Shown here one piece after another: positions 29,958-44,830 of a DNA stretch of 64,000 bases. Source of the stretch: Eubacterium sp. (GTDB taxonomy: Bacteria; Bacillota; Clostridia; Lachnospirales; Lachnospiraceae). The position numbers and the translations under genes were made by a program. Every line of letters begins with the position of its first letter. The stretch's first letter is position 1. The stretch covers positions 1 to 64,000 of the forward strand of contig JAEFAB010000026.1 of NCBI GenBank assembly GCA_016292095.1, in the 5' to 3' direction. The notes under the pieces are model-generated. The model was not told the origin of the DNA. It saw only the letters and a program-made list of their open reading frames with translations, and searched no databases.

Positions 29958-32900
29958 GTGAAACTTTTGATGGAAAAACTGGCATCAGGAAATGCAAATT
30001 ATGAAACGCCTGATGTGGAAATTTCAGAAAACAGAATTGCCGTGGAACTGCACGGTGGAGAAACCGTAGAAGGAGAAATCACAATAACCGGAAAGAATGG
30101 ACTTCCGGTAAAAGGTGTGGCTTTTTCAACGGATGACCACGTGACCTTTGAGAACAATCAGTTTTACGGAGTGAATAATATATTACGCTATAAAATCAGC
30201 GGTAAAAATCTGTACGAAGGACAGGTCTGCAGCGGAACAATCAGCGTGATTACCACCGGTGGTGATTTTGCTATTCCGTTTGGGATTACAATTAAAAAAG
30301 ATGAAGTGACATCGGCAGGTGGAAGCGTCAATACATTGCAGGATTTTCTTCAGCTTGTTCAGGAAAGCTATGATGAAGCGTTGCTTTTATTTATGTCCAA
30401 AGAATTCAGAACCTATTTCCTGAAAAAGGACAGCTATGGATATACTTTGTATAATCAGCTGATGAAAAATCATAACAGACATATTGCTATGGAAGAATTT
30501 CTGGTGGGAATGGGACTGAAAAAGCGCGTTACCATTCTGACGAAAGAAAATCTGAAAGAATTTACAAATATTGAAGACAATTATGCAGATGTAGTTGAAA
30601 TACATAAGAATACCTGGGGATACGTTGACTTAGACGTAACCGTAGAAGGAGAATTCTTTTATAACTGTAAGGACAAGGTTAGCAGTGAAGAGTTCAACGG
30701 CAGAATTGCAGAATATAAATACTATATCAATGCAGCAAAACTTCACGGTGGAAGCAATCACGGAAGAATTACCTTTAAGAACGTCCACGAGTGTATCGTG
30801 TATGATGTGATTATTGTTAATCAGAAAGACAGCATTGAAGAGTATATCAGTGAAAAAAGAAATAACATGGGGCTGATTAAGAATTATCTGGATTTCCGTA
30901 CCGGTAAAATCGACAGCTTTAAGTGGATGGATGAAATGAGCAGAATGGCAGATGAACGTCTTTCTTCCAATGGAAAAGATGTGGTAGGTCTTCTGGCAAA
31001 GGCTCATATTGCCATTGTTCAAAACCAGAATGAAGAAGCATCTTCATACTTAAATGAAGTTTCAGGAATTCTTGCGCTGAATAAAGAATACAGCGTAGAA
31101 GAATATTGCTTCTATCTTTATTTAAAAACTTTGCAGAAAAACAATCCGAATTATACCAGTGATATTAAGGATGAAATTAAGCAGTACTACGAAGGCGGAC
31201 ATGATACATGGCAGTTGCTTTGGATGCTCTTTTATATGGATGAACGATTTGAAGAAAATCCAAGTTTGAAATATACCATGATTAAGCGTCTGTTCGGAGA
31301 TGGATGCTATAGTCCGGTAATGTATTACGAAGCGGCTAATATTATTGCCAAGCAGCCGGAGCTTTTACGAATTATCAATAAGTTTGAAATTCAGGTGTTA
31401 AACTTTGCCGGAAAATATCATATGGCAAATGAAGAATTGGCGAAGCAGGTTGCGGAACTGATGGTAAAGGAAAAGACTTTCCAGACAACGTACTTCCAAA
31501 TCCTGACCCGTTTTTATGAAGACACGAAACAGGATGAAGTGCTGGGGGCAATCTGTTCCATGATTATCAATGGAGAAAAGAAGCAGCCGGAATACTTTAA
31601 GTGGTTGGAATTGGGCGTGCTCCATGACCTGAAGATTACCAATTTATATGAATATTACATTTACTCTTCGGACGTAACACAGTACAAACCGTTCGAACAG
31701 TCTGTATACAAATATTTCTCCTACGGTACAGATACTTTAGGAGAAAATAAAGATTATTTCTATGCGAATCTGATTATCAATATGAAGGATGATCCGATGT
31801 TTGCAAAATTCAGAGATGGATTGGAACGATATGCAACAGAACAGCTTCTGATGGGAAGAAATAATCGTTTCCTTCGTGTGATTTACAACATGGTTCTCAC
31901 AAAGGATTTTGTTGTAGATGATATGGAAAGTAAATTGTCTCAGGTATTGAACACCTATGAGATTAGAGTGGACAATGAAAATATTAAATCTGTTGTTGTT
32001 TGTCACAAAGAAATGGAACATGTACAAATGGTTTCCGTGACAAACAAGAATGCGTATGTTCAGATTTATACAAAGAATCCGGTTATCGTCTTTGTAGACG
32101 GAAACGGAAACATTATGTCCAAAGTATCCTATGAGCTGGAACAGATGAAGATTGACATTCATCTGGAAGAACAGCGTTCCAACGATTTGGACGTCCTTCG
32201 TTATGTAGAAGAGATTATGGAACATCCGTTAGACCATCAGGGAGAAGTGGTGGAATTAAAGAGAGCTGTGGAAATGCAGGGAATCTCAAAACAGTACGAA
32301 CTTGCATTAAAAGAATTCATTGTGGATTACTACTATAAGGGATTTGACAAGGGCGATTTGGATATTTATCTTCTCTCATTAAATATGGAAGAATTATCCA
32401 TTCCATCCAGAAATAAGGTGATGGAAGTCCTCATTGAAAGAAATATGATTGAGATGGTGTACCCATATGTTGTACGCTATGGCTATCAGGGCATTGAAGT
32501 TGAATTATTGAAGAAGATGTGTCTGGAACTGGTAGAACGGGAGGAAATGAAGGACAACAAGTTGTTGGCCGAAATCTGTGGTGTTGTATTCCGAAACGGA
32601 TGCAGAGAAGACAGCATTCTGGTCTATCTCGGAAAATACTACGAGGCAGGTTCTTTGGAACTGCAGCAGCTATTCCTTTCCATTCAGGCAAAGAAAATTG
32701 AAGATAATACGCTGGCAGAAAGACTGTTGATTCAGTATATTTTTGAGGCAAGCACTTATGATGGTATTTACAATATCTACCGGGAATATTTAAAATATCC
32801 AACCAATTCCATGGTGCGCAGAGCTTTCTATACCTATGTAACATTCAATTACTTTATTAAGAAAGTGCAGTGCCCGGATATTGTTTGGGAAATTCTGGAA

Positions 32901-33491
32901 CAGGAATACAGCAATGGTTTCCAGACCACATTAATTACAAAAATTGCTTTTGTGGAAATTCTTTCCAAGAAGGATGAGTTGACAGAAAAGGAAATTGAAA
33001 TCGCAAAGAAACTCATTGGTGATTTGGCAAAGAATCATATTAATCTGGACTTCTATAAGAAATTCAATAAATGGTTTAAAGTACCATTTGATTTGATTGA
33101 TAAAACAATCATTGACTTCAGAACAAATCCAAAGCATAAAGTTTACATTGATTATCAAATCAAGACTGCTGAAGGGCATACGAAACGGGTCAATGAAGAA
33201 ATGCGCAGCATTTATCAGGGAATCTTCACTAAAGAAATTATTATGTTCTATGGAGAAGAAATTAATTACAGCATTAAAGAATATTCTGATGAAGTCCCGA
33301 ACGGAAAAGTTTTGGACAATTATTCAGTTCGAATTACAGATAAAAATACCTACAATGACGAGACCAGATTCGGCATGATTAACGGCATGATGATTTGCAG
33401 AAATCTCGGCAGAAATGAAGCGGCAAGAGAAATTATGCAGTCCTATGAACTGGATCGAATTGCCGGAAAAGATTTGTTTAAACTGTTGTAG
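29958..33491 (+). CDS. DUF5717 family protein, large, unknown function
   Basis: 1177 aa, cytoplasmic by appearance (no signal peptide or transmembrane helix). The first ~120 residues are beta-rich (ENRIAVELHGGETVEGEI, then VTFENNQFYG), resembling an Ig-like sandwich. The rest is mostly helical and acidic with Tyr/Glu-rich repeats, suggesting TPR-like or solenoid structure. A second beta-rich insert occurs near residues 670-720 (VSVTNKNAYVQIYTKNPVIVF). I recognise it as DUF5717, which I know only from Lachnospiraceae. The start is GTG at 29958, 7 bases after AAAGAGG. It is followed 14 bp later by an Hsp70-like DUF5716 gene. Confidence 0.75.
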   Translation: MKLLMEKLASGNANYETPDVEISENRIAVELHGGETVEGEITITGKNGLPVKGVAFSTDDHVTFENNQFYGVNNILRYKISGKNLYEGQVCSGTISVITTGGDFAIPFGITIKKDEVTSAGGSVNTLQDFLQLVQESYDEALLLFMSKEFRTYFLKKDSYGYTLYNQLMKNHNRHIAMEEFLVGMGLKKRVTILTKENLKEFTNIEDNYADVVEIHKNTWGYVDLDVTVEGEFFYNCKDKVSSEEFNGRIAEYKYYINAAKLHGGSNHGRITFKNVHECIVYDVIIVNQKDSIEEYISEKRNNMGLIKNYLDFRTGKIDSFKWMDEMSRMADERLSSNGKDVVGLLAKAHIAIVQNQNEEASSYLNEVSGILALNKEYSVEEYCFYLYLKTLQKNNPNYTSDIKDEIKQYYEGGHDTWQLLWMLFYMDERFEENPSLKYTMIKRLFGDGCYSPVMYYEAANIIAKQPELLRIINKFEIQVLNFAGKYHMANEELAKQVAELMVKEKTFQTTYFQILTRFYEDTKQDEVLGAICSMIINGEKKQPEYFKWLELGVLHDLKITNLYEYYIYSSDVTQYKPFEQSVYKYFSYGTDTLGENKDYFYANLIINMKDDPMFAKFRDGLERYATEQLLMGRNNRFLRVIYNMVLTKDFVVDDMESKLSQVLNTYEIRVDNENIKSVVVCHKEMEHVQMVSVTNKNAYVQIYTKNPVIVFVDGNGNIMSKVSYELEQMKIDIHLEEQRSNDLDVLRYVEEIMEHPLDHQGEVVELKRAVEMQGISKQYELALKEFIVDYYYKGFDKGDLDIYLLSLNMEELSIPSRNKVMEVLIERNMIEMVYPYVVRYGYQGIEVELLKKMCLELVEREEMKDNKLLAEICGVVFRNGCREDSILVYLGKYYEAGSLELQQLFLSIQAKKIEDNTLAERLLIQYIFEASTYDGIYNIYREYLKYPTNSMVRRAFYTYVTFNYFIKKVQCPDIVWEILEQEYSNGFQTTLITKIAFVEILSKKDELTEKEIEIAKKLIGDLAKNHINLDFYKKFNKWFKVPFDLIDKTIIDFRTNPKHKVYIDYQIKTAEGHTKRVNEEMRSIYQGIFTKEIIMFYGEEINYSIKEYSDEVPNGKVLDNYSVRITDKNTYNDETRFGMINGMMICRNLGRNEAAREIMQSYELDRIAGKDLFKLL

Positions 33492-33505
33492 GGTAGGAGG
33501 ATGTT

Positions 33506-34735
33506 TTGGTTAAAGGTACAATTTTAGGAATAGATTTTTCAAAAGACTATACACAGTTAGCGTTCATTGATGAAAACGGAAATCCGGAATCCATCAGCTT
33601 TGGAACCGAAGACAATTATCTGATTCCTTCTGTGGTTTGTTACCACAAAAATCTGAAGGAATGGTATGCCGGAGAAGAAGCTGTAAACAAAGCGGAAATT
33701 CCGGACTGTGTCAGTTATGACTGTCTGCCGGAAATGCTTTTGGAAGACAGTGATGAGAAAAGCATTGAGATTATGAGTGCATACTTTTCTTATCTGTTGA
33801 AGATGGCTGAAAAACGATGTGATAATCAATCGGTAAAGAATATCCTGATTACCGTGGAAGAAGTAACCCCTTCTTTGGTGGAAGCATTAACGGAAACCTT
33901 GTTCCGGTTGGGATATGAAGAAGGAGATTTCCGCATCATCAGTCATTCGGAAAGTTTTGTATATTACGTGTTGAATCAGAATAAAGACATTTGGATTAAC
34001 CGGGTTTACTTCCTTTCTTTCACCAAAGAAAAACTAGTAAATCGACAGTTGAAAGTAATTCACGGACGAGGCCCATCCATTGCTTATGTGGAAGTAGATG
34101 ACCTTTCGGAACTGTTAACCTATGAACAGGTGAAGGAAAATCCAAGACATGCAGATGAAGTATTGTTTGATTATTTGGATGAAGCGTTTAAACATAATGT
34201 GGTTTCCGGAATCTACCTGTCCGGAGACGGGTTCTACGAAGAAGACTGGGAAAAATCTTTGTCTTTGATGTGTAGAAACAGAAGAGTTTTCAAAGGGAAC
34301 AACCTGATTGTGAAAGGTGCAGCTTTGGGAGCAAAGGAATTTTTCCATATTCCAAATCTGGAAAACTATTTGATTTCCTGCAAAGGCCGTACCAGAGTAA
34401 AAGTTACTATGGCGGTAAAATACAAGGAAAGAGATAATACCATTACCCTTTCTAATGTAGGGGATTACTGGTCTCAGGCAAAGTCCAAGGCAGAATGTAT
34501 TATGGAATCTCCAACCAAAGCATATTTTGAAGTGAACGATTTGTTGAAACAGCAAAAAGACGGTTTTGAACTGGATCTGACCGGATTTCCGGAAAGACCA
34601 CCGAAGACTACAAGAATCGAAGTGAACTTCAGATATCTGGATGAAAACAAATTTGAAATAGTCATTAAGGATTTGGGATTCGGAGAATTATTTAAGAGTT
34701 CAGGAATGGAGGTAAGTAAAATCTACGAACTGTAG
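33506..34735 (+). CDS. DUF5716 family protein with Hsp70/actin-like ATPase fold
   Basis: 409 aa. The N-terminus ILGIDFSKDYTQLAFIDENG is the phosphate-1 loop of Hsp70/actin ATPases. RIISHSESFVYYVL corresponds to the Hsp70 NEPTAAAL region, IYLSGDGFYEEDWEKSL to the adenosine motif, and VKGAALGAKEFF to the following helix. The C-terminal ~110 residues are beta-rich and could be a substrate or partner domain, but they do not look like a DnaK peptide-binding domain. The start is TTG at 33506 with GGTAGGAGG upstream. It is tightly linked to the DUF5717 gene and the TPR gene. Function is unknown; a nucleotide-switched chaperone or scaffold is inferred. Confidence 0.75.
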   Translation: MVKGTILGIDFSKDYTQLAFIDENGNPESISFGTEDNYLIPSVVCYHKNLKEWYAGEEAVNKAEIPDCVSYDCLPEMLLEDSDEKSIEIMSAYFSYLLKMAEKRCDNQSVKNILITVEEVTPSLVEALTETLFRLGYEEGDFRIISHSESFVYYVLNQNKDIWINRVYFLSFTKEKLVNRQLKVIHGRGPSIAYVEVDDLSELLTYEQVKENPRHADEVLFDYLDEAFKHNVVSGIYLSGDGFYEEDWEKSLSLMCRNRRVFKGNNLIVKGAALGAKEFFHIPNLENYLISCKGRTRVKVTMAVKYKERDNTITLSNVGDYWSQAKSKAECIMESPTKAYFEVNDLLKQQKDGFELDLTGFPERPPKTTRIEVNFRYLDENKFEIVIKDLGFGELFKSSGMEVSKIYEL

Positions 34736-34749
34736 GTTTTATAGGAAAC

Positions 34750-35529
34750 ATGAATAAAATTGCATTATGTACCATACATACGGATAAACCGTATTACATT
34801 AAAGAAATCAACAGAAATATCTATTCCATTGAAGAATTGGCTTACTATTTGTTCAATTACCTGTATCTCGTAGAAGAAGGTTTTTTCAATGAAGGGTTGC
34901 TGGCATATATTGAGGATGAATTGAATCAGCCATCCATTGCGGCAGGGTTGAGAACAATTAATGATAATAAAGGAAGCCTAGGAGAAAAGGTTGCCTTTGT
35001 GATTAAGAATTCCGGATATTATTCCGAAAGAGAATCGGAAAAACTGGAAAACCATCTGGTAATGCTTAGTTCCAAAACAGCAGCAGAGCGTGTGAAAGCC
35101 AAAGCAGATATGCTGATGGATACCGGAAAATACAATATGGCAATTAATTACTATAACAGCATTTTGAAAAAGTCTGTGAACAAAGAATTGCCGGAGCGTT
35201 TTTACGGAGATGTCTACAATAATCTTGCCGTGGCGTATACCAGGTTATTTGAATATGAAGAAGCGGCAGCAGCATTTCGTTGTGCATACCGTTTGAATAA
35301 TTCCAGCGAGTCTTTGGAATCCTTACTTCTTTGTTCGCTGTTGGAAGGGGATGAGGAACGTCTGAAAATCGATCAGAAAAAATACGGTATCTCAGATACC
35401 GTAGTCAATCGACTTCGTTCCGAGATTATCCGAAGAAAAGTTCACATCCAATCTGAGTGGGATGAAGCGAACGAAGGAGACTACGTGAAAAAGTGCAAGA
35501 AGGAATACGTAGTGGAAATCAATAGTTAA
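34750..35529 (+). CDS. TPR-containing protein of the DUF5716/5717 locus
   Basis: 259 aa, soluble. Residues 1-90 form a helical domain (YSIEELAYYLFNYLYLVEEGFFNE) that I do not recognise. Residues ~115-200 read as tetratricopeptide repeats (ADMLMDTGKYNMAINYYNSIL, then NNLAVAYTRLFEYEEAAAAF). The C-terminus is charged. The ATG at 34750 has TAGGAAAC upstream and lies 14 bp after DUF5716. TPR proteins commonly dock onto Hsp70-class proteins, so it may be a co-chaperone of its neighbour (inference). The transcript ends before the valS T-box. Confidence 0.7.
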   Translation: MNKIALCTIHTDKPYYIKEINRNIYSIEELAYYLFNYLYLVEEGFFNEGLLAYIEDELNQPSIAAGLRTINDNKGSLGEKVAFVIKNSGYYSERESEKLENHLVMLSSKTAAERVKAKADMLMDTGKYNMAINYYNSILKKSVNKELPERFYGDVYNNLAVAYTRLFEYEEAAAAFRCAYRLNNSSESLESLLLCSLLEGDEERLKIDQKKYGISDTVVNRLRSEIIRRKVHIQSEWDEANEGDYVKKCKKEYVVEINS

Positions 35530-35569: not shown

Positions 35570-35842
35570 AGGTATGTATAAATGCAGTGAACAAGAGGAG
35601 TAGCAACAAACCTTTTCCAGAGAGCAGGGGATGGTGGAAGCCTTGTAAAGAAGTGGTTGTGAAGGTAGCTTGGGAGCAGAAGTGACAAAGCTTTATTGTG
35701 TGTAGTTGCTTCCGGTTCGTCCCCGTTACAGGATATGATGAGTGATCAAGAAGGTGGTACCGCGAGCGTATGTTTCGCCCTTCTTAGCGGTACCTGCATA
35801 GATAATTAAGAATCGTGCCGATACCATTTGGCACGATTTTTT
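35570..35842 (+). promoter_or_regulatory. T-box riboswitch leader of valS
   Basis: The T-box core AAGGTGGTACCGCG is at 35751-35764, with complementary antiterminator bases downstream (CGCCCTT and GCGGTACC near 35777-35794). The stem I distal loop GGATGGTGGAAGCC is near 35628-35641. A candidate valine specifier codon GTA is at 35665-35667, tentative. The competing terminator is AATCGTGCC / GGCACGATT followed by TTTTTT (35811-35842). Uncharged tRNA-Val should promote readthrough into valS. Confidence 0.93.
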
Positions 35843-38696: not shown

Positions 38697-40190
38697 ATGA
38701 TATGTTATAACTGTGGAAGCGTCCTCACAAACAGTGATTTCTGCGGGAATTGCGGTATGGACGTGAGTGTTTATAAAAGAATAGTCAGATTATCAAACAC
38801 TTACTATAACGCCGGTCTTACAAAAGCCAGAAATAGAGATTTATCCGGAGCCGTTGATACATTGCGTCGAAGCGTTAAGCTGAATAAGCGAAACATTGAT
38901 GCGAGAAACCTTCTGGGTTTGGTCTATTTTGAAATGGGTGAGACTGTTCAGGCATTTTCTGAGTGGGTAATGAGTACGAATATTCAGCCGGACAACAACC
39001 CGGCAGATAAATATCTTCTTGCTATCCAACAGGAAAAGAGTAAGGTCGATGAACTGAACAGAACAATTAAAAAATTTAATGTTGCATTAAATTATGCAAA
39101 GCACGATACAGATGATATGGCGATTATCCAGTTGAAGAAAGTTCTGAATCAGAATCCAAAGCTGGTCAAAGCATCTCAGCTTTTGTGCCTGCTCTATATG
39201 AAACAGGGACAGTACGAACGTGCAAAGAGAACAATTAAAAAGTCCTTAAAGGTGGACAAGTGTAATCCGTTAAGTATTCGCTATCTTCGTGAGATTAACG
39301 AATATATGGATGAAGAACGCAAGAATGATCCGGAAACAAGAATGGAACGAAGAAGAAACCTTCGTGGGGTTCTTGTTGACAGGGAGTATTTAAGCGGTAA
39401 TGATGTGATTATTCCAAATAACAACTTCAAGGAAGCGGTGACCGGAGCACAGGGAATCCTTCATTTGATTATTGGTTTGTTAGTTGGTGCAGCGTTGGTA
39501 TACTTTATCGTAACTCCGGCTAGAATGTCTAAAGTTACAGAAGACAAAAACGAGGCTGCGGTAGAATACAAGCGTGAAATGGCAATTAAAGACTCGACTT
39601 ACGATTCTCTGGAATCAGAGTATAATGCCCTGAAAGAAGAATACGATATTTTGTCGGATGAAAAGGGCAGTGCCGATGAACATCAGAAAACTGTAAACAA
39701 TAACTACAAATATCTTTTGTCTGCAGTACAGTCTTATCTGAATAACAATACAGACAAGAGTGTTGAGGCATTGAATAAGATTAATACAAAAGATGGAATG
39801 GATATGGATAACTTCCAGGCAGTATATGATAAGCTGACGAAAGAGTTGTCAACAAAGATGGCTTCCAATGCCTATGAAGAAGGATTTTCTGCTTATGAAA
39901 ATCAGGATTATGAAAAGGCAATTGCACAGTTTAAGAAGTGCATCGAAATTGATAAGAACAATGATGATGCTTATTATTATATGGCTTGGGCATATAAGAA
40001 TTCCGGGGATGAAAAGAATGCTAAGAAGTATTTCGGTAAGATTGCATCAGACTTCCCGAATTCAGACCATTACAGTGTAGCAAAGTCTCAGGCTTCAGAC
40101 GGAGAATCCAATGAAGATTCCGGTGAGAACGAAGACTCAGCGGGAGAAGATTTGGACGAAGGTGAAGACGGAGATTTTGGTGAAGAATAA
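38697..40190 (+). CDS. Membrane protein with zinc ribbon, TPR repeats and acidic tail
   Basis: 497 aa. Residues 1-25 form a zinc ribbon (CYNCGS, CGNCGM). Residues ~30-200 are tetratricopeptide repeats (NARNLLGLVYFEMGETVQAF-like units). One transmembrane helix lies at about 257-276 (ILHLIIGLLVGAALVYFIV). The outer part has a coiled coil (~295-330), a further TPR pair (YEEGFSAYENQDYEKAIAQF, DAYYYMAWAYKNSGD) and an acidic Glu/Asp tail. The protein thus has TPR modules on both sides of the membrane. It may be a scaffold linking cytoplasmic and surface complexes (inference). The ATG at 38697 has GGGTGAG. A terminator follows. Confidence 0.8.
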   Translation: MICYNCGSVLTNSDFCGNCGMDVSVYKRIVRLSNTYYNAGLTKARNRDLSGAVDTLRRSVKLNKRNIDARNLLGLVYFEMGETVQAFSEWVMSTNIQPDNNPADKYLLAIQQEKSKVDELNRTIKKFNVALNYAKHDTDDMAIIQLKKVLNQNPKLVKASQLLCLLYMKQGQYERAKRTIKKSLKVDKCNPLSIRYLREINEYMDEERKNDPETRMERRRNLRGVLVDREYLSGNDVIIPNNNFKEAVTGAQGILHLIIGLLVGAALVYFIVTPARMSKVTEDKNEAAVEYKREMAIKDSTYDSLESEYNALKEEYDILSDEKGSADEHQKTVNNNYKYLLSAVQSYLNNNTDKSVEALNKINTKDGMDMDNFQAVYDKLTKELSTKMASNAYEEGFSAYENQDYEKAIAQFKKCIEIDKNNDDAYYYMAWAYKNSGDEKNAKKYFGKIASDFPNSDHYSVAKSQASDGESNEDSGENEDSAGEDLDEGEDGDFGEE

Positions 40191-40211
40191 TAACACCAAA
40201 TATATTTTACG

Positions 40212-40246
40212 AAAGAGAAGAATGAATGAATTCTTCTCTTTTTTTG
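40212..40246 (+). terminator. Terminator upstream of spoIIA operon
   Basis: Perfect 11-bp stem AAAGAGAAGAA / TTCTTCTCTTT, 8-base loop, then seven further T residues. It separates the TPR gene from spoIIAA. Confidence 0.9.
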
Positions 40247-40263
40247 TTGGAAAAGGAGGATGT

Positions 40264-40581
40264 ATGAAAAATAAGCAGGCGTTATACAAAGTGGGAAACG
40301 GAGAATTACTGATTATGCTCCCGAAAGAATTTGACCACCACAGTGCAAGGCAAATTACGGAACAGTCGGATTGGTATATTGTTTCAGCCAATGTGAGTAA
40401 AATTGTATTTGATTTTCAGAATACGGATTTTATGGACAGCTCCGGTGTGGGAACCGTAATTGGAAGGTACAAGCTGATGAAGGGCAGGGGGAAGGTTCAG
40501 GCATTAAATGTGAACCCGTCCATTGACCGGATTTTAACCATATCCGGATTATACAAAATAATGGAAAGGATAGAGAACTAA
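40264..40581 (+). CDS. spoIIAA: Anti-sigma F factor antagonist SpoIIAA
   Basis: STAS-domain protein, 105 aa. Dephosphorylated SpoIIAA binds SpoIIAB and frees sigma F in the forespore. The phosphorylatable serine is in FMDSSGVGTVIGRY. The N-terminal beta strands and C-terminal NPSIDRILTISGLYKIM match the family. The ATG at 40264 follows AAAGGAGGA; the longer reading from 40111 runs through the terminator. It is the first gene of the sporulation block. No convincing sigma-H promoter was found upstream. Confidence 0.95.
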   Translation: MKNKQALYKVGNGELLIMLPKEFDHHSARQITEQSDWYIVSANVSKIVFDFQNTDFMDSSGVGTVIGRYKLMKGRGKVQALNVNPSIDRILTISGLYKIMERIEN

Positions 40582-40593
40582 ACAGGAGGAATT

Positions 40594-41052
40594 ATGGAAA
40601 ACAAAGTATTTAAAAATCATATGCAATTAGAAATGGATGCGGTTTCGGAAAATGAAGCCTTGGCAAGGATTGCCGTGTCCGGATTTTTGTCCTCTGTGGA
40701 TCCGACCTTGGAGGAACTGGATGAAATCAAAACTGCAGTGTCGGAAGCAATTACCAATTCAATTATTCATGGTTACGAGGAAAAGAAAGGAACGATTCTT
40801 CTTCGGGGCAGGTTGACCTCGGAGAAGAAGGAAAGTACCCTGCATCTGGAAATTGAAGATTACGGAAAAGGAATTGCGAACGTGGAAGAAGCGAGAGAAC
40901 CTCTCTTTACAACGAAACCGGAAGAGGACCGGGCCGGTATGGGATTTATGTTCATGGAAATGTTTATGGACAGCTTGGAGATTGAGTCCGTTCCCGGCGA
41001 AGGAACAAAAATCAGAATGTTGAAAAAATTAAAAAAGAACAGGGTAGTGTAG
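40594..41052 (+). CDS. spoIIAB: Anti-sigma F factor SpoIIAB (serine kinase)
   Basis: GHKL-fold kinase, 152 aa, that holds sigma F inactive and phosphorylates SpoIIAA. The N-box is EIKTAVSEAITNSIIHGY, the G1 box is IEDYGKGI and the G2 box is AGMGFMFMEMFMD. It lies 12 bp after spoIIAA with CAGGAGG before the ATG. Start and length agree with the family. Confidence 0.96.
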   Translation: MENKVFKNHMQLEMDAVSENEALARIAVSGFLSSVDPTLEELDEIKTAVSEAITNSIIHGYEEKKGTILLRGRLTSEKKESTLHLEIEDYGKGIANVEEAREPLFTTKPEEDRAGMGFMFMEMFMDSLEIESVPGEGTKIRMLKKLKKNRVV

Positions 41053-41060
41053 AAAAACAA

Positions 41061-41768
41061 ATGGAACATATGGAATTAGTAAAGAGAGCTTACGCAGGAG
41101 ATAAATTATCCAGAGAAAAACTAATCGAAAGGAATCAGGGGTTAATATGGAGTGTTGTAAAGCGATTTCAAAACAGAGGTTACGACAGAGAAGATTTGTT
41201 TCAAATCGGATGCATTGGTTTAATGAAAGCAATCGACCGGTTTGATATGAAATTCGAAGTGGCATTTTCAACCTATGCCGTTCCAATGATTACAGGGGAA
41301 ATCAAGCGTTTTTTGAGAGATGACGGACTGGTCAAGGTAAGTCGGCGAATAAAAGAAAATCAGGGGAAAATTCGAGTGAACCGGCAGAAATATGTACAGC
41401 AGTATGGAGAAGAGCCAAGCCTTGGTTGGCTTAGTCAGGAGTGTTGTCTGGATCGGGAAGAAATTGTCAGCGCCATGGCGTGTCAGGGACAATACATATC
41501 TTATGAAGAAACGGATTTTCAGGGGCGACCGATTTTAGAACGAATTGCTTCGGGAGAAGATTTTACCGGGCAGATTGAAGAACGGTTAACCGTTAATCAG
41601 GCCTTGGAGCAACTGGACCAGATTGAACAGCGAATCATACGATTACGATATTATGAAAACAAAACACAAAGGGAGGTGGGGAATATTTTGTCGCTTCCGC
41701 AAGTTCGGATTTCACGGATGGAGAAACGGATTATGGAAAAAATGCGATATGCTTTAATTCAGATTTGA
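41061..41768 (+). CDS. sigF: RNA polymerase sigma factor SigF (forespore)
   Basis: Sporulation sigma factor of group 3, 235 aa. Region 2 reads LIERNQGLIWSVVKRF, DLFQIGCIGLMKAIDRFD and FSTYAVPMITGEIKRFLRDDG. Region 3 contains VSRRIKEN, and region 4 has LDQIEQRIIRLRYYENKTQREVG with the helix-turn-helix. The first ATG (41061) has no clear ribosome site; an ATG nine bases on (41070) is possible. Translation may be coupled to spoIIAB, which ends 8 bases earlier. Confidence 0.94.
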   Translation: MEHMELVKRAYAGDKLSREKLIERNQGLIWSVVKRFQNRGYDREDLFQIGCIGLMKAIDRFDMKFEVAFSTYAVPMITGEIKRFLRDDGLVKVSRRIKENQGKIRVNRQKYVQQYGEEPSLGWLSQECCLDREEIVSAMACQGQYISYEETDFQGRPILERIASGEDFTGQIEERLTVNQALEQLDQIEQRIIRLRYYENKTQREVGNILSLPQVRISRMEKRIMEKMRYALIQI

Positions 41769-43819: not shown

Positions 43820-44830
43820 ATGGGGAAAATGATTGGAAAACAAAGTATTCAGTTTGAAGAACCACCGTACCTTTTAGAAGGAGCTTCTGTTGTGGGACCG
43901 AAAGAAGGAGAAGGACCTTTGGGAAAATATTTTGATGTGGTGGAGCAGGATCCCATGATGGGACAGGATTCCTGGGAACAGGCAGAGAGTCTCTTTCAAA
44001 AAGAAGCCGTGCAGAAAGTGCTGGTGAAAGCAAAGGTTCCAAAGGATTCGGTTCGGTATATTTTTGCGGGAGATTTACTGGGGCAGTTGATTGGCACGAC
44101 TTTTGGCATTATGGAATATGAAATCCCTTTGTTTGGGATTTACGGAGCTTGCTCAACCATGGGGGAGGCTTTAAGTCTGGCGGCAATCATGGTGGAAGCG
44201 GGGAATGCGGACCGGGTCATTGCAATGACTTCCAGCCACTTTGCCAGTGCTGAACGTCAATTTCGATTTCCGTTAGAGTACGGAAAACAAAGGCCTTTTT
44301 CCGCCACCTGGACCGTTACAGGTTCCGGAGCGGTGATTGTAGGAAAGGAACGGGGTTTTGCAAAGATTACGGGAATTACCACCGGAAGAATTGTGGACTT
44401 CGGGGTAAAGGATGCACAGAACATGGGAGCATGTATGGCACCGGCAGCAGCAGATGTACTGTACAATCATTTTCAGGATTTCCAATGTTCCCCTTCAGAC
44501 TATGACAAAATCATTACCGGAGATTTGGGATTGGTTGGAAAGACGATTCTGTTCGAACTTTTAAATCAAAAAGGATATGACATTTCCAAAGTGCACATGG
44601 ATTGTGGTGTGGAAATGTTTGATGCTTCCCGTCAGGATACCCATGCAGGTGGAAGCGGATGTGCCTGTGCTGCCACAGTACTTTGTGGATATATTTTTCA
44701 TCAGTTAAAGAAGCAAGCCTTTCGCAAGATTTTGTTTATTCCGACAGGAGCCTTATTGTCCACCATTAGTTTTAATGAAGGAAATCCGGTGCCGGGAATT
44801 GCACATTGTGTGCAGATAGAAAGTTGTTAA
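43820..44830 (+). CDS. spoVAD: Stage V sporulation protein AD
   Basis: Thiolase-fold protein of 336 aa that binds dipicolinic acid and supports its uptake into the forespore. Family features are the IYGACSTMGEALSLAAIMVEAGNADRV region, VTGSGAVIVG, a central DLGLVGKTIL, and HAGGSGCACAATVLCGYI near the C-terminus. The ATG at 43820 has a modest TAGGAT. It precedes spoVAE by 9 bp. Confidence 0.95.
   Translation: MGKMIGKQSIQFEEPPYLLEGASVVGPKEGEGPLGKYFDVVEQDPMMGQDSWEQAESLFQKEAVQKVLVKAKVPKDSVRYIFAGDLLGQLIGTTFGIMEYEIPLFGIYGACSTMGEALSLAAIMVEAGNADRVIAMTSSHFASAERQFRFPLEYGKQRPFSATWTVTGSGAVIVGKERGFAKITGITTGRIVDFGVKDAQNMGACMAPAAADVLYNHFQDFQCSPSDYDKIITGDLGLVGKTILFELLNQKGYDISKVHMDCGVEMFDASRQDTHAGGSGCACAATVLCGYIFHQLKKQAFRKILFIPTGALLSTISFNEGNPVPGIAHCVQIESC

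Follow-up and report, generated by a model that had tools for sequence, protein, structure and literature searches.

How can an Hsp70 machine lose ATP hydrolysis and yet keep its core? This question is posed by three adjacent genes in a 64,000 bp stretch of DNA, referred to here as the window, which comprises positions 1 to 64,000 of contig JAEFAB010000026.1 of a Eubacterium sp. genome (assembly GCA_016292095.1; Lachnospiraceae). The genes encode a DUF5717 protein, a DUF5716 protein, and a protein with tetratricopeptide repeats (TPR). They form a trio of fixed order that is found in nearly every sampled genus of the apparently gut-dominant Lachnospiraceae, has a median identity below 30%, and is without an assigned function. 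A preliminary description of the locus had proposed a nucleotide-switched chaperone. The analyses presented here point instead to a scaffold or holdase complex without an ATP cycle, comparable to yeast Ssz1 and representing the core left from an operon with multiple Hsp70 genes, a reading to which we assign a probability of roughly 55%. The anonymous DUF trio becomes a testable case through its descent from an operon that encodes a GrpE-like factor and three Hsp70s of intact appearance. If the reading is true, the trio parallels Ssz1 in a bacterium, apparently by independent origin, and comparing full with stripped operons offers a natural way to learn what the ATP-driven part was for.

Conservation of the gene trio

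The three open reading frames (ORFs) are located on the forward strand and separated by gaps of 14 bp each, in agreement with the tight linkage noted previously. The first product matched the Pfam families DUF5717_N (PF18984; E = 3e-270, 899.2 bits) and DUF5717 (PF18983; E = 7e-72, 242.7 bits; gathering cut-off 25), the second DUF5716_C (PF18980; E = 3e-88, 295.9 bits; gathering cut-off 34.7), and the third, as expected from its earlier designation as a TPR protein, TPR_1 (E = 1e-7). That no function had been assigned was confirmed: Pfam gives none for DUF5716 or DUF5717, an NCBIfam scan of the two DUF proteins returned no family, and no publication on DUF5716, DUF5717, or the multi-Hsp70 operon was found among the literature matches listed. 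The sole literature mention of “DUF5716” was a motif scan of human MAX, which was dismissed as irrelevant.

The order DUF5717, DUF5716, TPR on one strand was retained in all of 61 neighbourhoods (60 fetched plus the window), 58 times according to the ORF caller and three times according to a six-frame search, where antisense ORFs of the simple caller had hidden a gene. Among named loci (the best 80 of 556), the DUF5716 gene came next as a full ORF in 78 and as a piece reaching the contig end in two; the TPR gene followed in 75, was a cut piece in two, and was preceded by the contig end in three. Median gaps across loci were 14 and 17 bp, with few outliers. This linkage is far beyond chance, and lack of conservation as a cluster, considered in the preliminary description as a possible outcome, clearly does not apply.

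With one genome analysed per genus, DUF5716_C and DUF5717 each matched 195 of the family's 200 genera by Pfam. When a broader DUF5717 profile was used, contig-end pieces were also recovered from the genomes G387 and G417, and both genes were absent only in G318 and G380 (2/200). The trio is mostly single-copy and nearly universal in the family. Of 291 genomes sampled from the class, 10 matched the DUF5716_C model, and every one of these belongs to the window's own family, which is consistent with the earlier statement that both DUFs are known from Lachnospiraceae only; as described below, this statement did not hold for a deeper profile. A profile of the TPR protein matched 116 of 348 genomes of the phylum, but reached E < 1e-60 in the four own-family genomes only, the weaker matches being located mostly on the TPR repeats. 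Collection titles among the best 80 of 556 named loci mostly referred to Lachnospiraceae or its genera (Anaerocolumna, Butyrivibrio, Blautia, Robinsoniella, Lactonifactor); the remainder were less specific (Clostridiales or Clostridium sp., for example), apart from a single “Muribaculaceae” (L185), which was taken as a mislabelled metagenome-assembled genome. A genome labelled as belonging to another family (G973, family f208) was also rejected as a genuine outside carrier. Contamination is likelier, since its contig (L258) is of the trio type, the genome has 5% contamination, and the seven other f208 genomes listed match only weakly.

Predicted fold and residue loss in DUF5716

The AlphaFold2 model of the window's DUF5716 protein (pLDDT 91.6, pTM 0.88) had DnaK as its best match in the Protein Data Bank (PDB) according to Foldseek (7kru; E = 1.4e-20, query TM-score 0.62), and Ssz1/RAC chains (RAC, ribosome-associated complex; 7x3k, 6sr6, 5mb9) were among the top 50 matches. 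The root-mean-square deviations were large (7 to 22 Å), which is ascribed to differing domain placement. On the sequence level, the DUF5716 profile aligned with the DnaK of the same genome over residues 2–149 (E = 1.9e-6). The window protein had no match to the Hsp70 family PF00012 at E 0.1; its orthologue in a sister operon found in other families of the order (A2 of locus L241; see below) matched at E = 2e-14.

Residues are numbered as in E. coli DnaK. When aligned with the own DnaK, the trio DUF5716 proteins were devoid of K70, E171, and the GGGT motif (0/59 each), and T199 and D201 were retained in one of 59 each. A similar pattern was observed in sister A2 (K70 0/19, E171 4/19, T199 0/19, D201 0/19), whereas the three paralogues encoded beside it keep each catalytic residue tested (A1 18/18, A3 19/19, A4 16/16). 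The stretch from D194 to G341 spans 60–80 residues in the trio proteins, compared to 133–182 in the sister Hsp70 groups (A2, 133–152) and 143 in the own DnaK; the alignment gap covers own-DnaK residues 199–227 and 243–278, so that approximately 70 residues of lobe II are missing. In DnaK, this stretch carries adenine contacts. The Hsp70 ancestry assumed in the preliminary description is thus supported by the model and the match to DnaK, but the family-wide loss of catalytic residues led to the rejection of DUF5716 as an active ATPase, and a nucleotide-switched chaperone is not supported either. The degenerate ATPase fold that had been foreseen as a counterargument is present as far as catalysis is concerned.

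The C-terminal part of DUF5716, in contrast to the earlier claim that a classic substrate domain is lacking, is predicted to form the beta sandwich of an Hsp70 substrate-binding domain (SBD-beta), with only the lid being absent. No helix of at least four residues follows residue 280 in the model, and the DnaK lid region is gapped in the profile alignment. This region is also missing in A1–A3, and in A4 a VWA domain comes after the SBD. A chain of profile matches through the sister paralogues connects the trio C-terminus to DnaK: it matched A2 (E = 9e-31) and A3 (E = 4e-14), and A3 in turn matched DnaK (E = 8e-5, probability 62). Matches to A4 and A1 were weaker (0.006), and the control against the A3 nucleotide-binding domain (NBD) gave 0.3. 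In a PDB profile search, the A2-type profile aligned to DnaK residues 5–468. Judged by model and alignments, DUF5716 is an Hsp70-derived protein that has kept the SBD-beta sandwich and lost the lid, part of lobe II, and the catalytic residues.

A sister operon with four Hsp70-family genes

The DUF5716 profile was searched in 295 genomes of the order, 48 from the window's family and 247 from outside. It matched all 48 own-family genomes and, at E < 1e-10, 99 of the 247 others, 98 of which contained at least two matches; 30 genomes with E above 1e-10 were assumed to be ordinary Hsp70 cross-matches. Of 20 regions fetched, 19 (L239–L257) carried the sister operon, the remaining one being the trio-type, probably contaminant contig L258. 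The homologues outside the family and this operon with multiple Hsp70 genes are new findings of the present analysis.

The sister operon usually comprises seven to nine genes in the order E, C, A1, B, A2, A3, A4, D, sometimes followed by H. In L241, Pfam identified E as the N-terminal and C as the C-terminal part of DUF5717, A1, A3, and A4 as HSP70 (A4 with an additional VWA match), A2 as DUF5716_C plus HSP70, B as GrpE (E = 7e-11), and D as a TPR protein. The B protein of L240 matched no Pfam family at E 0.1. B is a long coiled-coil protein with a GrpE-like domain at the C-terminus, which aligned with the GrpE of the window's genome (hhalign E = 1.3e-5, probability 81). H matched the profile of a fourth gene that follows the trio in many genera; the H protein of L245 was without a Pfam family. 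Across the 19 loci, A1 was recognised in 18, A2 and A3 in 19 each, A4 in 16 (plus one broken and one cut copy), B in 19 (one of them short), D in 14 (plus one split copy), and H in three. DUF5717 parts were present in 18, as separate E and C ORFs in 13, as one ORF in four, and as a cut piece in one. The gene set was complete in 14 of the 19 loci; the others are listed in Table 1. All 16 A4 proteins contain the motif D[TS]TGSM. A partial PADLOC match of the sister Hsp70-VWA protein to PDC-M61B (E = 2e-7) covered its Hsp70 part.

In the class sample, the B profile also gave matches in 45 of 291 genomes, but all listed matches cover positions 518–606 only and lie on ORFs of 170–335 amino acids, indicating ordinary GrpE; full-length B was not seen in this class sample.

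Phylogeny and probable gene loss

Phylogenetic trees with A3 as outgroup were calculated from a single alignment (97 proteins, 416 columns). The A2 proteins of three full operons (L245, L251, L239) clustered with the 59 trio proteins (FastTree 0.999; IQ-TREE SH-aLRT/UFBoot 99.9/100), and the other 16 A2 proteins stood apart (97.1/94). Since the trio is nested among members of full operons, the simplest assumption is a common ancestor with the full operon, from which the trio would have arisen via loss of A1, B, A3, and A4. By this placement, the trio looks like a stripped remnant of the full operon. The three loci closest to it all carry H. One of them, L239 (genome G825), contains split genes and a short B gene, which represent either decay in progress or an assembly error.

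Consistent with this loss, the B profile had no matches in the vicinity of the trio in two partly overlapping sets of 61 and 80 loci. In the same loci, the A3 profile matched DUF5716 itself only, and the weak matches of the A1 and A4 profiles fell on three ORFs, two of them MreB-like and one of the VWA type (named by eye). In the genome of the window, PF00012 detected DnaK and, with one short match, an ORF of 339 amino acids that is probably MreB. This genome also encodes one J-domain protein and a GrpE ORF adjoining dnaK (identified by eye and hhalign). The dnaK gene is located on a different contig than the trio.

DUF5717 and the fourth gene

The AlphaFold2 model of DUF5717 (pLDDT 86.2, pTM 0.56, the latter leaving domain placement uncertain) contains two beta-rich domains followed by helical solenoids. 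Together with Foldseek matches to Ig-like chains, this bears out the preliminary description of a giant helical protein with an Ig-like N-terminus. Chains of the ciliary central apparatus occupied Foldseek ranks 1–9, with solenoid proteins (UNC-45 and Naa15 among them) and the SPD-2 domains of CEP192 below them. Whole-model TM-scores were 0.04–0.14 in the listed matches, and the resemblance thus exists at the domain level only. The Ig domains of the ciliary and CEP192 entries are of the ASH/MSP type. A PDB profile search with DUF5717 gave no matches at E 0.01. Among the Foldseek matches of DUF5716 is a chain of Hsp70A from this ciliary apparatus (7n6g_6K). With both DUF5716 and DUF5717 matching the ciliary C1 central pair (Hsp70A and Ig-like chains), a convergent arrangement of an Hsp70 on an Ig-like scaffold is possible; the parallel is curious but does not indicate homology beyond Hsp70.

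A fourth gene was found directly 3' of the TPR gene in 21 of the 61 neighbourhoods; it was present in 59 of the best 80 of 556 named loci (median gap 18 bp) and in 91 of the 200 genera, in a few of them via weak or interrupted matches. It encodes a protein of approximately 400 amino acids without a convincing Pfam match (DUF2207_C weakly in 7/21) and with two (17/21) or three (4/21) hydrophobic segments; read by eye, the sequence appears to be coiled-coil in character. In one genome (L270), the family is found inside an ORF of 950 amino acids, which suggests a fusion. The fourth gene was not found in the genome of the window (91% complete).

Interpretation and alternative explanations

Among Hsp70 proteins, DnaK (PF00012) shares the NBD fold and the SBD-beta with DUF5716 but differs in possessing the catalytic residues, the approximately 70 residues of lobe II, and the lid, and the trio is without a J or GrpE partner. 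A further likeness is offered by Ssz1 of RAC. Ssz1 is described (PMC7083937) as lidless, able to bind but not to hydrolyse ATP, stably attached to its partner, and independent of a classical nucleotide exchange factor; its rudimentary SBD serves a partner peptide and low-affinity clients. DUF5716 is likewise lidless and, judged by sequence and model, non-hydrolysing. It differs from Ssz1 in being shorter and bacterial and in having as candidate partner an Ig-like/solenoid protein and not a J protein, and its origin probably was independent.

DUF5716 most likely is a permanent subunit seated on DUF5717, whose long chain of Ig-like domains and solenoids would serve as scaffold, and the TPR protein would be the adaptor. 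Such a complex may hold or position a client or an assembly via stoichiometric binding, without an ATP cycle, in a manner similar to the cooperation of Ssz1 with Zuo1 in yeast. In somewhat under half of the genera, the fourth protein with its membrane hairpin could tether the complex to the membrane; the genome of the window is without this protein. The loss of the GrpE-like gene and of the lobe II stretch in the DUF5716 lineage may be causally linked with the lost hydrolysis. A wider picture, which we put forward tentatively and at somewhat less than even odds, is that of a dedicated multi-Hsp70 assembly machine present in families of one bacterial order. It would combine four Hsp70-family proteins without lids, of which one is dead and another carries a VWA fusion, with a coiled-coil factor of GrpE type, a scaffold of Ig-like domains and solenoids, an adaptor with TPR repeats, and in some cases an anchor in the membrane. 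The family of the window would have reduced this machine to a nucleotide-independent structural core on the dead Hsp70, which nearly all sampled genera have kept.

Several observations weigh against an Ssz1-like core of this kind. Unlike in RAC, no J-domain partner was found by Pfam among the three trio proteins and nine proteins of L241 and L245. The trio proteins diverge fast, with median pairwise identities of 27–29% as compared to 51–85% for six neighbouring families (local BLAST values of pairs passing E 1e-5 and half coverage). The trio clade itself had a FastTree support of 0.591 (IQ-TREE 99/100), and survival of the lost Hsp70s elsewhere was checked in the window's own genome only, with PF00012. 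The direct match of the trio C-terminal domain to DnaK is weak (E = 5.7e-4, probability 30%), and the trio profile aligns to DnaK of the PDB over approximately the first 155 residues only. Finally, glycines on the adenosine side are retained in trio DUF5716 (G341 in 58/59, GA in 59/59), suggesting that nucleotide binding may persist.

These glycines, together with an acidic residue at the phosphate-1 position (D in 49, E in 10 of 59) and the precedent of Ssz1, which binds ATP without hydrolysing it (PMC7083937), are compatible with a DUF5716 that binds ATP or ADP as a sensor or a one-time structural switch of the complex. We regard this as rather unlikely, as the phosphate-2 loop, K70, and E171 are gone and the adenine-contacting stretch of lobe II is mostly deleted. 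Similarly improbable is a cell-structural, cytoskeleton- or envelope-like assembly with the dead Hsp70 as a mere building block. It would fit the top matches of DUF5717 to ciliary central-apparatus chains, followed by CEP192 SPD-2 domains and large solenoid scaffolds, and a partner with predicted membrane segments in many genera, but the fold likeness of DUF5717 applies per domain only (whole-model TM-scores 0.04–0.14). A co-chaperone function, in which the trio passes clients to the housekeeping DnaK as RAC passes nascent chains to Ssb, has less to recommend it. DnaK is retained in the own genome, as are a single J-domain protein and a GrpE ORF, and in the sister operon the same dead Hsp70 is encoded alongside intact-looking ones; however, HPD triplets are sporadic only, no J domain was recognised in the Pfam-scanned proteins, and the trio is unlinked to dnaK. 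A J-domain-driven system was rejected, as no DnaJ family occurs in the Pfam-scanned trio and sister proteins.

Least probable of all is a role in biological conflict (defence), as a relative of the GAP1-N2 systems. According to Kaur et al. (2020; PMC7159879), those with an HSP70/GrpE theme combine HSP70, GrpE, a second HSP70, and an FNIII beta-sandwich protein with TPR or DnaJ. This parts list is similar, and fast divergence of the trio proteins would also be in keeping with conflict. The likeness applies to the sister operon and not to the trio, however, as HSP70 and GrpE occur together in the former only; moreover, no GTPase family was found by Pfam in the trio proteins or in nine proteins of the sister operon, four Hsp70 genes lie close together in the sister operon, and the distribution is that of core genes and not patchy. 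The trio is nearly universal, mostly single-copy, and constant in gene order, and PADLOC gave no matches for its three proteins. Its near-universal spread in genera and the lack of a PADLOC match also led to the rejection of a mobile or defence system in general. CoCoNuT CnuD, according to PMC11090510 a degenerate Hsp70-like NBD/SBD protein with helical repeats in McrB-type restriction systems, differs in that no McrB-type part was found among the trio or sister proteins scanned.

Features and genomic surroundings

The features of the window and of selected other loci are compiled in Table 1.

Table 1. Features of the trio and its surroundings in the window, examples of the fourth gene, and sister loci that were incomplete as fetched.
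Feature	Position	Strand	Description and basis
DUF5717 gene	29958..33491	+	ORF, GTG start, 1177 aa; Ig-like/solenoid protein, probable scaffold
Ig-like domain 1, DUF5717 residues 20-112	30015..30293	+	Strands in AlphaFold2 model; Foldseek ranks 1-9 (whole model) are ciliary central apparatus chains
Ig-like domain 2, DUF5717 residues 193-288	30534..30821	+	Strands in AlphaFold2 model
Helical solenoid 1, DUF5717 residues 293-664	30834..31949	+	AlphaFold2 model; lower-ranked Foldseek matches UNC-45, Naa15
Small beta domain between solenoids, DUF5717 residues 666-729	31953..32144	+	AlphaFold2 model
Helical solenoid 2, DUF5717 residues 743-1047	32184..33098	+	AlphaFold2 model
C-terminal beta domain, DUF5717 residues 1049-1125	33102..33332	+	AlphaFold2 model; within PF18983
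DUF5716 gene	33506..34735	+	ORF, TTG start, 409 aa; lidless, Hsp70-derived, without catalytic residues
Degenerate nucleotide-binding domain, DUF5716 residues 1-286	33506..34363	+	Lobe II ~70 residues shorter; alignment, profiles, AlphaFold2
SBD-beta-like sandwich, DUF5716 residues 288-409	34367..34732	+	No lid; AlphaFold2 model, profile chain to DnaK SBD via sister paralogues
TPR protein gene	34750..35529	+	ORF, ATG start, 259 aa; conserved N-terminal part, TPR repeats at ~residues 117-185
T-box leader	35578-35785		Rfam RF00230, 116.7 bits
Zinc-ribbon/TPR protein	38697-40190		497 aa; after valS
ORFs resembling spoIIAA, spoIIAB, sigF	40111-41768		Translations read by eye
Stage V sporulation protein AD	43820-44830		NCBIfam
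Fourth-gene examples	L082:10798-11979, L239:3102-4238		Placed directly after TPR gene in many genera
L239, incomplete			Hsp70-VWA gene and TPR gene both split into two ORFs; short B of 279 aa (profile E 6e-42)
L249, incomplete			A1, DUF5717 part, and D not recognised
L250, incomplete			Contig end before D
L252, incomplete			No A4 or D
L255, incomplete			A4 and DUF5717 cut by fetched stretch; no D

As read from the sequence, AAAGAGG is located 7 nt upstream of the GTG start of the DUF5717 gene and AGGAGG 5 nt upstream of the TTG start of the DUF5716 gene. A promoter scan remained at chance level (22 found, 23.1 expected). The trio is preceded by rarA/mgsA (Pfam) and followed by a T-box leader and an ORF that reads by eye as valyl-tRNA synthetase, and the trio thus probably ends before the T-box. 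ValS-like ORFs are in some cases found beside other trio loci and sister loci, and a HisC-like gene precedes the trio at many loci and the sister operon at several.

Farther downstream in the window, a protein is encoded that begins like a zinc ribbon, carries TPR repeats at either end, and probably contains a membrane segment; its family was present in 6 of the 61 neighbourhoods including the window. The ORFs resembling spoIIAA, spoIIAB, and sigF and the stage V sporulation protein AD indicate that the host probably is a spore former.

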